From: Gloeothece verrucosa PCC 7822 | GTDB taxonomy: Bacteria; Cyanobacteriota; Cyanobacteriia; Cyanobacteriales; Microcystaceae | Direction: 5' to 3' | DNA: 64,000 nucleotides | NCBI RefSeq assembly: GCF_000147335.1 | Contig: NC_014501.1 | Span: 3,860,001-3,924,000, forward strand | Part shown: positions 8,502 to 40,315 of the stretch, in pieces | Layout: each line of letters starts with the position of its first letter | Numbering within the stretch: position 1 is the first letter of the stretch | The notes under the pieces: model-generated | Database searches by the model: none | The model's input: the letters and a program-made list of their open reading frames with translations, nothing else | Told to the model about the DNA's origin: nothing | Position numbers and translations under genes: made by a program

Positions 8502-10916
8502 GTGAAACTCTTGCTGGTAGAAGATGACCAAAACCTTGCTGAGGTCATCAAAGGGGCACTTAAAAGTCAGCACTACCTTGTAGATCTAGCGACTGACGGA
8601 CAAACAGGCTTAGAATTTGCCGAAATGTTTGAGTATGATTTAATCATGCTCGATCTAATGTTACCAAAACTTGATGGTATTCAATTTTGCCAACAGCGAC
8701 GTAAACAAGGAGACCTTACACCCATTCTTCTGGTAACCGCCCAAGACGATGCCACATACAAAGTCAGGGCACTAGATGCAGGGGCAGACGATTACCTGGT
8801 CAAACCTTTTAATATACAAGAATTGTTAGCCCGAGTTCGTGCGTTATTACGTCGGGGGGGTTTGTCTTCAACTCCCCTTTTACAATGGGGACCGTTAGAC
8901 CTTAATCCTAGTAGTTGTCAAGTGAGCTACCAAGGGCAACTCCTGCATCTAACAGCCAAAGAATATGGAATTTTAGAACTATTTTTAAGGAACCGGAACC
9001 GCATTTTTAGTCAAAGCGCCCTGATTGAACATCTTTGGTCTTTTGATGAATCCCCCACAGAAAATGCCGTTAGAACCCAAATTAAAAGCCTTAGACAAAA
9101 ACTCAGAGGAGCCGGAGCTTCTCCTAATTTGATTGAAACCGTCTATGGACTCGGCTATCGACTCAATGGGACTATCCTTAACGCCGCACAAGCGGCATTA
9201 GAAGAAAACGACAAAGAAAGTGCGGAACTCGTTCGGCACCCCAACCTGATTAACAATTCAGGCACTTCCAATCTAGTTGATCAAACCATTAAATTACTCT
9301 GGAACCAACACCGAGAGGGATATTTTAATCGAGTAAAATTTATTGAACAAGTGGTTAATTCTAACCATCTAACCGATGGGAATGGAGTCAATAGACAACA
9401 AGCCATTACTGAAGCTCACACGCTAGTGGGTGCCCTTGGCAGTTTTGGATTTGAACAAGCTTCAGGAATTGCTCGTGAAATAGAACGAGTTTTAAAAATG
9501 GAGAGGGGGTCTAATCAAATAGACCGAGAAAATCTTTTAAAATTGGTGAAAACATTAAGACAAAAACTAGAGACAGACCAGAACAACGAAGAGACGAATT
9601 TAGATGTAAAAGCCTTAAGTTTTTGTCATCCTTATCAAAGAAAAGATTATCAATTGTTAATTGTCGATAACGATTTTGCCCTAGCTCAAGCCATAGCAAC
9701 TCAGGCAAAAATATGGGGATTAAAATCTGAGATTGCTTGTAACTTATCTCAAGCCAAAAGAGCGATTGCCAGTTTTCAGCCTGATGTAATTTTGTTAGAT
9801 CTGTTCTTTCCTGATACAGGAGAAAATGGGCTAGAACTATTACAAGAACTGAGCCAATTAATTCCTTCTATTCCTACCATTGTGTTGACGGCTCAAAATG
9901 ATTTTTCATTTCGGGTGAAAGTGGCTCGTTTAGGGGGAGTAGGTTTTCTGCAAAAACCTCTTGCTCCTGAGCGCATTGTTGAAGCGATCGTCAAAGTGGT
10001 ACAACCCGGTTGTCTACCCACAGCTAAACTGATGATTGTAGACGATGATCCCAACTTGTTAGAGATCACGCGAACTTATTTGGAACCTTGGGGCTTTACC
10101 CTGACATTACTCCAAGACCCGAAACAATTTTGGGAGACTTTAGAACAAACTAATCCAGACCTCCTAATTCTGGATGTTGAAATGCCAGAAATTAGCGGCA
10201 TAGATTTGTGCCAGGTGGTGCGAAATGATCCCCATTGGCATGAGTTACCGGTGTTATTTCTTTCGGCTCATACTTCGGCTAAGGTAGTGCGTGAAGGATT
10301 TCAAGCCGGTGCAGATGATTATATTTATAAACCGATTGTTGATTCTGATTTGGTTAGCCGCATTCTTAACCGTTTAGAACGAGAACGCCAACGCCGCCAA
10401 TTAGCTGATGTAGATAGTTTAACCGGTGTTGCCAGTCGGCGCAAATCTATTCAAGAAATCACTCGTATGCTGCATTTAGCACAACGCCAAAAACAGCCTT
10501 GTTGTTTTATTATTCTTAATATAGAGAATTTGTCACAGATTAATGAGCTATATGGTCATGCTGTTGGGGATCAGGTTTTGCGAGGTTTAGCAAAAATCTT
10601 ACAGCAGACTTTTAGATATGAGGATATTATTGCCCGTTGGGGAAACGAAGAGTTTGTTCTTGGATTATATAATATTGATCTACAGGGGGGAATTACCCGA
10701 ACCAGAGAGTTTTTAGCTCTTTGCTCAAACTCACTGTTTACTGATGCTTTAGATCACTGTTTTCAAGTTAAACTTACTGTGGGTGTTGCTGAGTATCCTC
10801 TTAATGGCCAGACTTTACAAAATTTATATCAAGCGGCGCAACAGGCGCTATACCAAGGGAAAGTCAAGGGAGGTTATGGCGTTTTTGGTACTGAAGAGTT
10901 TAGCCTGATTCTTTAA
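8502..10916 (+). CDS. Multi-receiver hybrid response regulator: REC-wHTH-Hpt-REC-REC-GGDEF
   Basis: An 804-aa signalling protein. Residues 1-120 form a receiver (phospho-acceptor Asp51 in IMLDLMLPKLDG). An OmpR-type winged helix follows (about 130-225). Residues about 260-370 form an Hpt domain with the likely phospho-histidine in EAHTLVGALGSFGF. Two more receivers follow (VILLDLFFPDTG and LLILDVEMPEISG). The C-terminal GGDEF-like domain (about 640-804) begins DVDSLTGVASRR. The active-site loop reads WGNEEF instead of GG[DE]EF, so diguanylate cyclase activity is doubtful. Such REC-trans_reg-Hpt-REC-REC-GGDEF chains occur in cyanobacteria. The start is GTG after an AAGG site. An in-frame palindromic repeat lies near residue 240. 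Confidence 0.88.
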   Translation: MKLLLVEDDQNLAEVIKGALKSQHYLVDLATDGQTGLEFAEMFEYDLIMLDLMLPKLDGIQFCQQRRKQGDLTPILLVTAQDDATYKVRALDAGADDYLVKPFNIQELLARVRALLRRGGLSSTPLLQWGPLDLNPSSCQVSYQGQLLHLTAKEYGILELFLRNRNRIFSQSALIEHLWSFDESPTENAVRTQIKSLRQKLRGAGASPNLIETVYGLGYRLNGTILNAAQAALEENDKESAELVRHPNLINNSGTSNLVDQTIKLLWNQHREGYFNRVKFIEQVVNSNHLTDGNGVNRQQAITEAHTLVGALGSFGFEQASGIAREIERVLKMERGSNQIDRENLLKLVKTLRQKLETDQNNEETNLDVKALSFCHPYQRKDYQLLIVDNDFALAQAIATQAKIWGLKSEIACNLSQAKRAIASFQPDVILLDLFFPDTGENGLELLQELSQLIPSIPTIVLTAQNDFSFRVKVARLGGVGFLQKPLAPERIVEAIVKVVQPGCLPTAKLMIVDDDPNLLEITRTYLEPWGFTLTLLQDPKQFWETLEQTNPDLLILDVEMPEISGIDLCQVVRNDPHWHELPVLFLSAHTSAKVVREGFQAGADDYIYKPIVDSDLVSRILNRLERERQRRQLADVDSLTGVASRRKSIQEITRMLHLAQRQKQPCCFIILNIENLSQINELYGHAVGDQVLRGLAKILQQTFRYEDIIARWGNEEFVLGLYNIDLQGGITRTREFLALCSNSLFTDALDHCFQVKLTVGVAEYPLNGQTLQNLYQAAQQALYQGKVKGGYGVFGTEEFSLIL

Positions 10917-38116: not shown

Positions 38117-38160
38117 CGAGCGTGACTAATAACTAATGACTAATGACTAATAACTAATGA
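38117..38160. repeat. Degenerate TGACTAA/TAACTAA heptamer array overlapping nblB stop
   Basis: Four to five tandem units of the TTAGTCA family (complementary orientation), one variant having TAACTAA. The array supplies the last residues SH and the stop codon of nblB on the minus strand. Confidence 0.85.
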
Positions 38161-38816
38161 CTAAGAAGTGTTTGAGCCGCCACAGCCACTTGTTCCACTG
38201 GATCGCCAGACAATTGTTCTAAAGCGGTCTTAGCTTGTTCTCCCTCTAAATTTCCGAAGGCCTGGACTAAACGATAGCGAACTTGCCAATCTGGATCATT
38301 TATAAAAGGAAGTAATAACTCAATCGCCCGGGAATCGCCTAATTCTCCTAAAGCACTGATGGCGGCTGTAGCCACCAAGCTATTTTCATTTTGGAGGGCA
38401 ATTTTAAGAAGATCAAAGCCTCTGGGGTCACCAAACTCTCCTAAACAAGCAATAATGCTCATTTGGATCAGCCATTCCGAGGTTTGATGATATAACTGTT
38501 GTAGGTCTTCAAAGGCGGCGGTCAGTTTTAAGCCGCCAATGACATCAGCCGCCACTGCTTTAACATCGGCTTCCGGGTCAAAGCGTAGGCGTTCGCGCAA
38601 TAATTCTAAGGCTTTTTCTAAATCTTGTTTTCCTAAAGGATCTAACTGACTAACTGCCGCGTAGCGTACCCGAACATTTTGATCGCTCACGAGGGGTTGA
38701 ATCATTTCAAAAGCTATTTTCGGGTCTAATTGACGTAATTGATTAATCCCTCGGATGCGATCACCAAAATCGCTGGAGTCAATTAATGCTTGAACTGATT
38801 CTGGGGTTACACTCAT
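38154..38816 (-). CDS. nblB: HEAT-repeat protein NblB
   Basis: A 220-aa protein built of five to six HEAT/PBS-lyase repeats (VRVRYAAVSQLDPLG, DVKAVAADVIGGLKL, SLVATAAISALGELG, WQVRYRLVQAFGNLE). The N-terminus MSVTPESVQALIDSSDFGDR and the total length match cyanobacterial NblB, which is related to phycobilin lyases. NblB is required for phycobilisome degradation under nutrient or high-light stress and acts on chromophore detachment. An IsrB element ends directly upstream of the start, and no Shine-Dalgarno sequence is visible before this ATG. Confidence 0.78.
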   Translation of the reverse strand: MSVTPESVQALIDSSDFGDRIRGINQLRQLDPKIAFEMIQPLVSDQNVRVRYAAVSQLDPLGKQDLEKALELLRERLRFDPEADVKAVAADVIGGLKLTAAFEDLQQLYHQTSEWLIQMSIIACLGEFGDPRGFDLLKIALQNENSLVATAAISALGELGDSRAIELLLPFINDPDWQVRYRLVQAFGNLEGEQAKTALEQLSGDPVEQVAVAAQTLLSH

Positions 38817-38838
38817 CGAAAATTTTGGGTTTGAAACC

Positions 38839-38865
38839 CCGTCCTTTAGCGACAGCGAAGGACGG
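38839..38865 (-). terminator. Right-end hairpin of the IsrB element
   Basis: A perfect 8-base stem (CCGTCCTT/AAGGACGG) lies 12 bases beyond the isrB stop codon. IS200/IS605-group elements carry such end hairpins for transposase recognition. It may also slow read-through into nblB, though no T-run follows. Confidence 0.55.
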
Positions 38866-38876
38866 CTTTACATTTT

Positions 38877-39998
38877 TTAGCAATTGACAATCAATCCGTT
38901 TGAACGTCTAATCAAAGTCACTTTGCTAACAGCTATCTGCCCTAACCGTTTCCAATTAGCATCGCTAACAGATATTTGTTTTTTAGTTTGACCTGAGACA
39001 TAGTCAATTCCTTTAGGGCAATTAACTAAATCCCCTTTTCTTAAATCAAAGTCGGTTATTGTTCCTCCATACTGTCGTCTTATACCTCCCTTGCTCTTGA
39101 GCATAAGATGAAGTTGACGACGACTAAACGGAGGTCTTTTAATAACAGCGAATGGACAATTTGTTATTGTTACTGAACCTACCCAGTGATGACCTTGACT
39201 ATTAACAGTCTGAAAAGATTTATAATCTAAAAACTGAAAACAAGCTAAAGTTAAACCATCTAAGCCATGACTCTCTTTAGATTGTTTGGCTTTGTCTTTA
39301 GACTTTTCTAATCCTAAATGTTGTCTTAAGTTAGAGGTCTGCCATCCATAACGGGTATCAACATTTCCCAACTGCCTTAGTTGCTCTAACATCCATTTTT
39401 GACCAACCATCACAGGAGAGAACCCTTTTCCTGAACAGGCTTTTTTCCTGCCTGAAGTTAAATCTACATCGGCTTTTACATACTCAAAGTAAATATCAGT
39501 TATCGGAAAAACTTTACACAGTTCTTTGACGACCCTCAATTCTAGTTGTCTGTTAGCGCGAATTGATGGAGTGCGGAACTCGTTCCGCACCCCAGGTAAT
39601 TTGCCCTGTTTGCGGTTGTTAAAACGCTTTTGACGGTGCGCTCTTAGTTCAAAAGGCAGGTGGCGATTAATTCGCCTTCCTCTCCTTGTACGACGCATCA
39701 TTCGGCGATCTTCCATTCGCTTTTTTATTGTTTTAAAAGGTAATTCTAAATGTCCAGCCCATAAAGAATATGACGAAGACTGAACACCTATACCTGAAAA
39801 CAGCTTACCTGGGTCAATTCCTATAGAGATAGTTTGAGTTTTGTTGTCAGATGAATTGACAATTAGTTGAACATAAAATTGATTTAAGTCGTTGAACTTG
39901 CCAACAGCTTTACCGTCTTTTATCCATTTTCTTGCCCTACTAGGTTTAGTGGGCATTAAGGGTTTTCCTTCTTTTGAGATAACAGGTACTCTTAGCAT
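38877..39998 (-). CDS. isrB: IsrB, RNA-guided RuvC nickase (IscB relative lacking HNH)
   Basis: A 373-aa protein. It begins with the PLMP domain (GKPLMPTKPSRARKWIKDGK). RuvC-I follows (ISIGIDPGKLFSGIGV, Asp62), then an arginine-rich bridge helix (RRMMRRTRRGRRINRH). RuvC-II has ITDIYFEYVKAD (Glu172) and RuvC-III has ESHGLDGLTLA (His244, Asp247). Only about 70 residues separate RuvC-II and III and they hold no HNH motif, so this is IsrB rather than IscB. All RuvC catalytic residues are present. Known IsrB proteins nick DNA under guidance of an omegaRNA encoded just upstream. Residues about 137-144 are an in-frame palindromic insertion. The ATG follows AAGGA. Confidence 0.9.
   Translation of the reverse strand: MLRVPVISKEGKPLMPTKPSRARKWIKDGKAVGKFNDLNQFYVQLIVNSSDNKTQTISIGIDPGKLFSGIGVQSSSYSLWAGHLELPFKTIKKRMEDRRMMRRTRRGRRINRHLPFELRAHRQKRFNNRKQGKLPGVRNEFRTPSIRANRQLELRVVKELCKVFPITDIYFEYVKADVDLTSGRKKACSGKGFSPVMVGQKWMLEQLRQLGNVDTRYGWQTSNLRQHLGLEKSKDKAKQSKESHGLDGLTLACFQFLDYKSFQTVNSQGHHWVGSVTITNCPFAVIKRPPFSRRQLHLMLKSKGGIRRQYGGTITDFDLRKGDLVNCPKGIDYVSGQTKKQISVSDANWKRLGQIAVSKVTLIRRSNGLIVNC
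39571..39590. repeat. Palindromic repeat inserted within isrB
   Basis: A perfect palindrome of two 9-base arms (GTGCGGAAC/GTTCCGCAC) around TC. It encodes VRNEFRT inside a loop where relatives usually read PPSI. Related copies lie at 9220-9239, 43955-43966 and about 26114-26136. Confidence 0.75.
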
Positions 39999-40009
39999 GG
40001 AGATAATCC

Positions 40010-40315
40010 TTAAAGAGTTAAGTTTAAGTTCCTTTGCCCACCTAACAAACCATGTCTTGTCTTTAGCAACACTCGTACCAATCGAGTTTAGAGAGAATCC
40101 GAACTAGGGAAGCATTCGGAAGTCTGTGAGATTGTTAGGCTAAAATGGGCTATTCACTTCTTGCGTTGACCAAATTGGTTTGGACAATCCTCGCACTTGA
40201 CCGGCGAGGTTAGTGAATTTTTCTTAATTTTCTTCACCTTGAATTTTGTCGCCCAAAAAATTTAACCATGTAGCTTAATCAAGAGCTACTCCCAAAACGA
40301 AGCGAGTGGGAGACT
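40010..40315 (-). ncRNA. Probable omegaRNA of the IsrB element
   Basis: The interval between the CBS gene and isrB is packed with perfect stems on the minus strand. These are CTCCCA/TGGGAG (40289-40312), GTAGCT/AGCTAC (40270-40289), and ATTCACT/AGTGAAT (40152-40158 with 40212-40218). The last encloses CCTCGC/GCGAGG (40189-40209) and CCAAA/TTTGG (40170-40183). A 13-pair long-range helix joins 40036-40048 to 40132-40150 with a six-base bulge and encloses TCCGAA/TTCGGA (40098-40120). Position and length (about 300 nt, ending at the isrB start) fit omegaRNAs. The guide would come from the sequence outside the left end, the tail of the CBS gene. Confidence 0.75.

Follow-up and report, generated by a model that had tools for sequence, protein, structure and literature searches.

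The locus raises the question of whether a stem-rich stretch of DNA immediately upstream of a gene for an HNH-less relative of IscB (IsrB) encodes an omegaRNA for that protein, and of what kind of genetic element the two would form. Comparison of copies indicates that positions 38817 to 40217 of the window (the whole 64,000-nt stretch of Gloeothece verrucosa PCC 7822 DNA analyzed here, whose numbering is used throughout) are very probably a 1,401-bp non-autonomous mobile element of the IS200/IS605 type and the IsrB kind, which runs on the minus strand, lies between the CBS gene and nblB, and sits flush to the nblB start codon. The features are as follows:

38154-38816, minus strand: nblB, the flanking host gene directly behind the element (NF045915)
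38813-38816, minus strand: ATGA, predicted target-adjacent motif (TAM) and nblB start codon (from the reading of homologues and known IsrB TAMs)
38817-40217, minus strand: IsrB element, ends set by comparing copies
38817-38876, minus strand: right end of the element, hairpin-forming repeats, ending ..GGGGTTTCAAACCCAAAATTTTCG (conserved in own-genome copies and relatives)
38877-39998, minus strand: isrB, 373 aa, candidate HNH-less RuvC nickase (PF14239, DtIsrB 8dmb, AlphaFold model)
39571-39590, minus strand: 20-nt palindromic repeat GTGCGGAACGAGTTCCGCAC inside the isrB insertion, a dispersed small repeat
39999-40217, minus strand: omegaRNA scaffold with S1, SL1, SL2, a long-range S2/S3-S4 helix, SL4, SL5 and a terminal hairpin (covariation)
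40106-40110, minus strand: nexus pseudoknot, 5' side (partner 40029-40033); paired in 99.3% of cells, with double changes in 2 of 5 pairs
40174-40179, minus strand: adaptor pseudoknot, 5' side (partner 40077-40082); paired in 100% of cells, with double changes in 5 of 6 pairs
40218-40237, minus strand: predicted 20-nt guide, from flanking DNA (copies share nothing 5' of 40217)

The omegaRNA scaffold and the IsrB protein

An earlier note had proposed an omegaRNA candidate across 39999-40315, and the perfect stems that it described are present where it had placed them. The long-range helix comprises 13 pairs (40036-40039 with 40147-40150 and 40040-40048 with 40132-40140), leaves six bases of one strand unpaired, and surrounds the TCCGAA/TTCGGA hairpin (40114-40120 with 40098-40104). 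Two hairpins lie within the ATTCACT/AGTGAAT stem (40212-40217 with 40153-40158, and one more pair outside these), and the terminal hairpin reaches the last base ahead of the isrB ATG. Helix names are borrowed from DtIsrB by analogy. The same note had called these 317 bases strongly structured, a description that folding does not bear out: their fold is no better than that of shuffled sequences (z = -0.77; 23 of 100 shuffles equally good), and the scaffold at 39999-40217 gives z = -1.52, with 17 of 200 shuffles equally good. On these two values, thermodynamic folding was rejected as evidence for an RNA, and the case for one is a comparative case of covariation among relatives, not of folding stability. 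The proposed extent of the RNA also had to be shortened, because conservation stops at 40217 and the last 98 bases (40218-40315), outside the conserved block, fold at chance level (z = 0.21; 107 of 200 shuffles).

Covariation was assessed in 28 aligned sequences, namely, the window, its three sister copies in the same genome, and 24 of 36 loci from relatives; five Pleurocapsa/Xenococcaceae loci, one locus with an insertion in the RNA (L044), and six truncated or contig-end loci were omitted. The block shared by the 28 sequences runs from 40217 to the base preceding the isrB ATG. A 59-pair structure that includes both pseudoknots is paired in 96.3% of cells, with 46 of the 59 pairs changed on both sides, so that the conserved structure that the earlier note had expected among homologous elements was indeed found. 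None of 500 shuffles reached any of the five measures, and sliding the partners by 1 to 3 columns as a control lowered pairing to 31-53%; since the structure was drawn from the same alignment, part of the excess over these slid controls is expected, but the double changes are not. The terminal hairpin is the weakest helix (83.3% of cells paired).

The scaffold resembles the group B IsrB omegaRNAs, with an adaptor pseudoknot between SL2 and SL5 and a nexus pseudoknot between SL4 and the segment preceding SL7; PMC9581776 gives this plan both for DtIsrB and for CwIsrB, the latter under group B2. An upstream omegaRNA with both pseudoknots, as expected of an IsrB, is thus found across the family, one of the five nexus pairs being broken in the window. 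Our own covariance model, built partly from the window sequence, scores 212.3 bits at 39999-40217. The Rfam model HEARO (RF02033), the omegaRNA of IscB, shares the overall helix plan and aligns over all of its 211 positions (1-211) to 40217-40022. Its score of 39.1 bits (E = 3.9e-6), however, is below the gathering cut-off of 83, whereas the HEARO RNAs at three other places in this genome where iscB occurs (C1:5933639, C1:4110799, and C6:144512) exceed that cut-off, at 160-170 bits. Elsewhere in the genome, a further sub-threshold HEARO match (57.8 bits; C1:2866349-2866547, L016 and L091) is followed by a frame that resembles the middle of IscB by eye, and is probably a truncated copy.

PF14239 (RRXRR; E = 4e-50) was the sole Pfam domain found in the protein, whose best match among solved structures is DtIsrB (8dmb; E = 1.2e-37, residues 2-369, full length), the best IscB match reaching only 3e-14. 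Consistently, for an AlphaFold model made from 23 sequences (mean pLDDT of 72), Foldseek placed 8dmb at the top (E = 9e-28; TM of 0.72 by target length). The protein thus has full-length homology to a characterized IsrB. The protein shares with IscB a RuvC domain, the RRXRR/PLMP N-terminal part, and a partial match to the IscB model NF040563 (117 bits, below the cut-off of 175; best stretch, residues 6-179), but it lacks the HNH domain that is inserted in the RuvC domain of IscB, as is typical of IsrB. Its PLMP motif (L14 M15 P16 T17), also an IsrB trait, is invariant in alignments of 16 and 23 sequences. The RuvC residues that the earlier note had called intact (Asp62, Glu172, His244, and Asp247) indeed occur in the window protein, and neither of the two alignments that include it shows any variation at them (16 of 16 and 23 of 23 proteins). 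In the 23-sequence alignment, R351 is invariant and Q354 is at least 90% conserved; both fall in the KRxGQ segment, where, by alignment and with an inferred numbering offset, DtIsrB carries R323 and Q326, by which its TAM is recognized according to PMC9581776.

The covariation in 28 sequences and the full-length 8dmb match together support an omegaRNA candidate directly upstream of an HNH-less IsrB, the same arrangement of RNA and RuvC protein that PMC9581776 describes for CwIsrB, DsIsrB, and DtIsrB. The characterized proteins come from other species and differ in sequence, Crocosphaera relatives of the window IsrB being 67-72% identical in protein, and the window copy has an eight-residue insertion and a broken nexus pair. 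The same source reports that the IsrB of Crocosphaera watsonii (CwIsrB) is active with an NTG TAM, and the window pair would therefore add one more member to an established group of nickases. Judged by sequence comparison, the IsrB and omegaRNA element is real and belongs to a known enzyme type.

Element ends, guide, and empty sites

The genome carries four isrB copies (the window and three sisters) with unrelated 5' flanks. Because the sequence 5' of 40217 is unrelated among copies, the guide is predicted at 40218-40237, its 20-nt length being taken from DtIsrB (PMC9581776). This segment is intergenic, lying approximately 80 nt past the stop codon of CBS. The earlier note had placed the origin of the guide in the CBS gene tail, which was rejected since nothing 5' of 40217 is common to the copies; comparing the flanks of genome copies, as that note had suggested, gave both this guide and ATGA as the predicted target-adjacent motif. 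A crude scan of the minus strand from the guide to 40900 found no promoter-like site; the total for the region was 3 sites versus 4.9 expected.

At the other end, 60 nt of conserved right end separate the isrB stop from ATGA, where nblB begins (NF045915 NblB, 348.7 bits against a cut-off of 300; residues 3-215 on profile positions 1-213). ATGA stands at the start position in 21 of 29 homologues from related genomes, another ATG stands there in 2, and 6 were not readable at that offset. The characterized CwIsrB, DsIsrB, and DtIsrB have NTG or NTGA TAMs (PMC9581776), with which ATGA agrees. RNA-guided nicking at an NTG(A) TAM fits both the residues and the motif, and is predicted for the window pair.

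CBS and nblB matches lie on one contig in 12 of 39 genomes with approximately 30-110 nt between match ends (coordinates read by eye), and in two further genomes they are more widely spaced. The short spacing in the 12 genomes indicates that the window element occupies an old intergenic gap; its own empty site was not found, and we infer its existence from the CBS-nblB synteny.

Empty sites were sought directly by searching 12 genomes with the joined flanks of four sister elements from a related genus (L116, L114, L119, and L115). Uninterrupted junctions were present in 10 genomes for L116, 8 for L114 (G408 and G409 being ambiguous), 10 for L119, and 11 for L115, the last at a place without a long ORF. 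Donor genomes were split at the junction, as were G332 at two sites and G406 at one. At all 30 of these empty sites that were inspected, the guide flank joins the motif without a gap (ATGA in 29, TTGA in 1), and hence an empty allele shows the guide target next to NTGA, whereas a filled allele does not. These four elements have thus been inserted exactly beside a fixed short motif, with no duplication of the target; for the window element, this is indicated by synteny only. Such insertion beside a short motif is shared with the peel-and-paste IS200/IS605 elements that carry TnpB, from which the window element differs in lacking tnpA and in having its guide at the 5' rather than the 3' end. Two sister species (G006 and G332) have elements at the same two sites (L113/L116 and L114/L121), where 8 to 10 of the 12 genomes have no insertion. 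One of these isrB copies (G332:C1:4484803) contains two in-frame TGA codons.

Start codons and relatives without a protein

Placement directly before a start codon, seen here with nblB, recurs among relatives of the element. From 74 elements (the window, its three sisters, 30 of 36 relative loci, and 40 further places), three duplicates (L108-L110) and 12 without a right-end signature were dropped, leaving 59 with a recognizable right end, a sample that is not phylogenetically independent. In 41 of the 59, window included, the ATG at the right end opens at least 60 codons, and three of the four own-genome copies abut such an ATG. Since the signatures were composed by eye from the inspected tails and all close with ATGA by design, this count tests the ORF behind the element and not the ATGA itself. 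A stricter count, in which the left end had to be found by pattern (n = 43; 14 fail, including the own-genome sister L090), added the demand for an upstream stop in the joined flanks and gave 29 of 43 versus 72 of 707 control ATGA sites that lie in these same flanks but outside ORFs (Fisher P = 2e-17). Without this demand, cut-offs from 60 to 200 codons gave 68-47% versus 20-12% in the control, and leaving out L113 and L121, whose sites are common with L116 and L114, gave 39 of 57 versus 166 of 827, likewise with no upstream-stop criterion. In L024, L126, L137, L121, and L032, the signature is located within the ORF or at a distance from its end, and the left end of L044 is uncertain.

The downstream host genes include nblB, galK, ccmN, trxA, nifE, and dapB, with family profiles that begin at residues 1-7; two of the 10 downstream proteins scanned had no family match. 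A Shine-Dalgarno core in the guide region was rejected as an independent sign of a gene start at the empty site, because it occurs in the last 20 nt of that region in 6 of 31 start-codon elements and in windows further upstream in 1, 2, 6, 2, and 6 of 31, which is no enrichment. Also rejected was the idea that the right end regularly supplies its own core, found in only 11 of 59 elements, 9 of these in two subfamilies. In the subfamily of L138, L139, L140, and L143, the right end has AAGGAG or AAGGAA six bases before the ATG, as if a ribosome-binding site had been restored to the gene behind it.

Among 292 genomes sampled from the phylum, 28 contained matches to the covariance model, and we chose 20 of the matching loci that had no isrB listed adjacent. 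In 16 of them, there was no similarity to the window IsrB in the stretch examined (L230 stops at a contig end), and the other 4 contain fragments. Ten of the 16 are compact elements of 283-378 bp that consist of a scaffold and a right end flush to ATGA; in the remaining six, no right end was recognized. With one from the own genome, the set is:

L217, L218, L219, L221, L224, L226, L229, L231, L232, L234, and own-genome C5:382885-383182: ORF-less elements, 11 in total

Scaffold pairs are kept in these 11, with double changes in 33 of 48 pairs, a figure biased towards the model to which the sequences were aligned. The 11 also have in common a 3' extension with an additional helix, which was not seen in the isrB-bearing copies of the 28-sequence set. 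Its arms read GCTGGTT/AACCAGC or, in variants, GCTGATT/AATCAGC and GCTAGTT/AACTAGC, with imperfect pairing in L224 and L232. Six of the 10 compact elements adjoin ORFs of more than 200 codons. Genome G027 has three ORF-less copies that are 97-100% identical, and no IsrB match at the stringent threshold of E = 1e-70.

One possible reading, which we put forward at less than even confidence, is that IsrB elements home to start codons and that their ORF-less relatives exploit the same niche with a guide RNA alone, in trans. If so, an ATGA motif would place the element in the 5' untranslated region, co-directional with a gene that stays intact; a guide outside the element, at its 5' end, could be transcribed only from the host promoter, which would then make guide, omegaRNA, and IsrB together; and the TAM of empty alleles, being the start codon, would not easily be lost. 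The placement pattern would thus link maintenance of an RNA-guided transposon to host gene starts and offer a reason why a guide located outside the element is expressed, and the relatives without an ORF would provide a compact nickase with natural guide RNAs that act in trans. Among the titles and abstracts listed by the literature searches, we found no description of start-codon insertion of IsrB or HEARO, nor of the ORF-less family. The ATGA-motif side of the habit is probably not new, and a 2009 paper on HEARO elements reportedly places them 5' of ATGA or GTGA. The trans-acting idea is not new either, since standalone omegaRNAs working with IscB are mentioned in PMC9581776, where the main text does not use the wording "start codon."

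Proposed mechanism and condition of the window copy

Sequence comparison establishes the boundaries, RNA structure, protein family, and motif of the element, and the precise insertion of sister elements. In the mechanism that we propose, transcription from an upstream host promoter would yield the guide (40218-40237), the scaffold, and the isrB mRNA; IsrB would bind the omegaRNA and nick the empty site, where the guide target adjoins ATGA, which would help the element to be copied in again. A filled site would be spared because the guide match there precedes TTCA, not NTGA. Nicking of empty sites and the resulting retention are suggested by analogy with TnpB homing (PMC11870625); as IsrB only nicks, the way in which it would aid retention is hypothetical. 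Movement itself would require TnpA from elsewhere.

As the earlier note had suggested, the window pair may be active, its catalytic residues being intact, but two of the 59 RNA pairs are broken in this copy, versus none in the three sisters, and it alone among the 28 sequences breaks nexus pair 40109-40030, which is C-A; in DtIsrB, mutations that break pseudoknot pairs abolished nicking (PMC9581776). In addition, its isrB carries a 24-nt in-frame insertion (eight residues, at about 135-142) that is absent from 15 aligned relatives and contains the dispersed palindrome at 39571-39590, of which the genome has 50 exact and 29 one-mismatch matches (self-complementary variants counted on both strands). 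The copy may accordingly be weakened, and these same features favor a history in which it moved and worked formerly and is now a fossil, damaged in omegaRNA and protein, or an RNA used in trans by sister proteins. We lean somewhat against such decay, in view of a frame open over 373 codons, intact catalytic and TAM residues, and a score in our own model (212.3 bits) like those of the sisters (210-214). HEARO scores are uninformative here (39.1 bits for the window, 49.7 and 49.3 for two sisters; the third sister, C1:440371, is not among the matches listed).

It is improbable that the element is instead kept because a structured leader or an RNA-guided protein controls nblB expression. Abutment to start codons far above control would suit such a regulator, as would the identity of downstream genes with family matches as host genes, but 8 to 11 of 12 species have nothing inserted at the four sister sites examined, so that the element is not conserved as a host function there, and the RuvC residues are intact. 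Less probable still is a cis-regulatory isrB leader or a CBS terminator with no guide RNA: the terminal hairpin does lie right at the isrB start, yet the scaffold follows the omegaRNA plan with both pseudoknots, is retained in elements that have no ORF, and is preceded directly, in the aligned copies, by unrelated sequence, as expected of a guide.

A one-mismatch match to the core of the isrB palindrome is also present at 9221-9238 of the window. As for the transposase, short BLAST and pattern searches found no TnpA with matching ends among the seven PF01797 loci of the own genome. A tnpB-like element at C1:2445241-2445270 (L211 and L212), which ends at an lpxD-like start (names assigned by eye), has the same terminus as the IsrB elements, and this common terminus suggests a shared TnpA.
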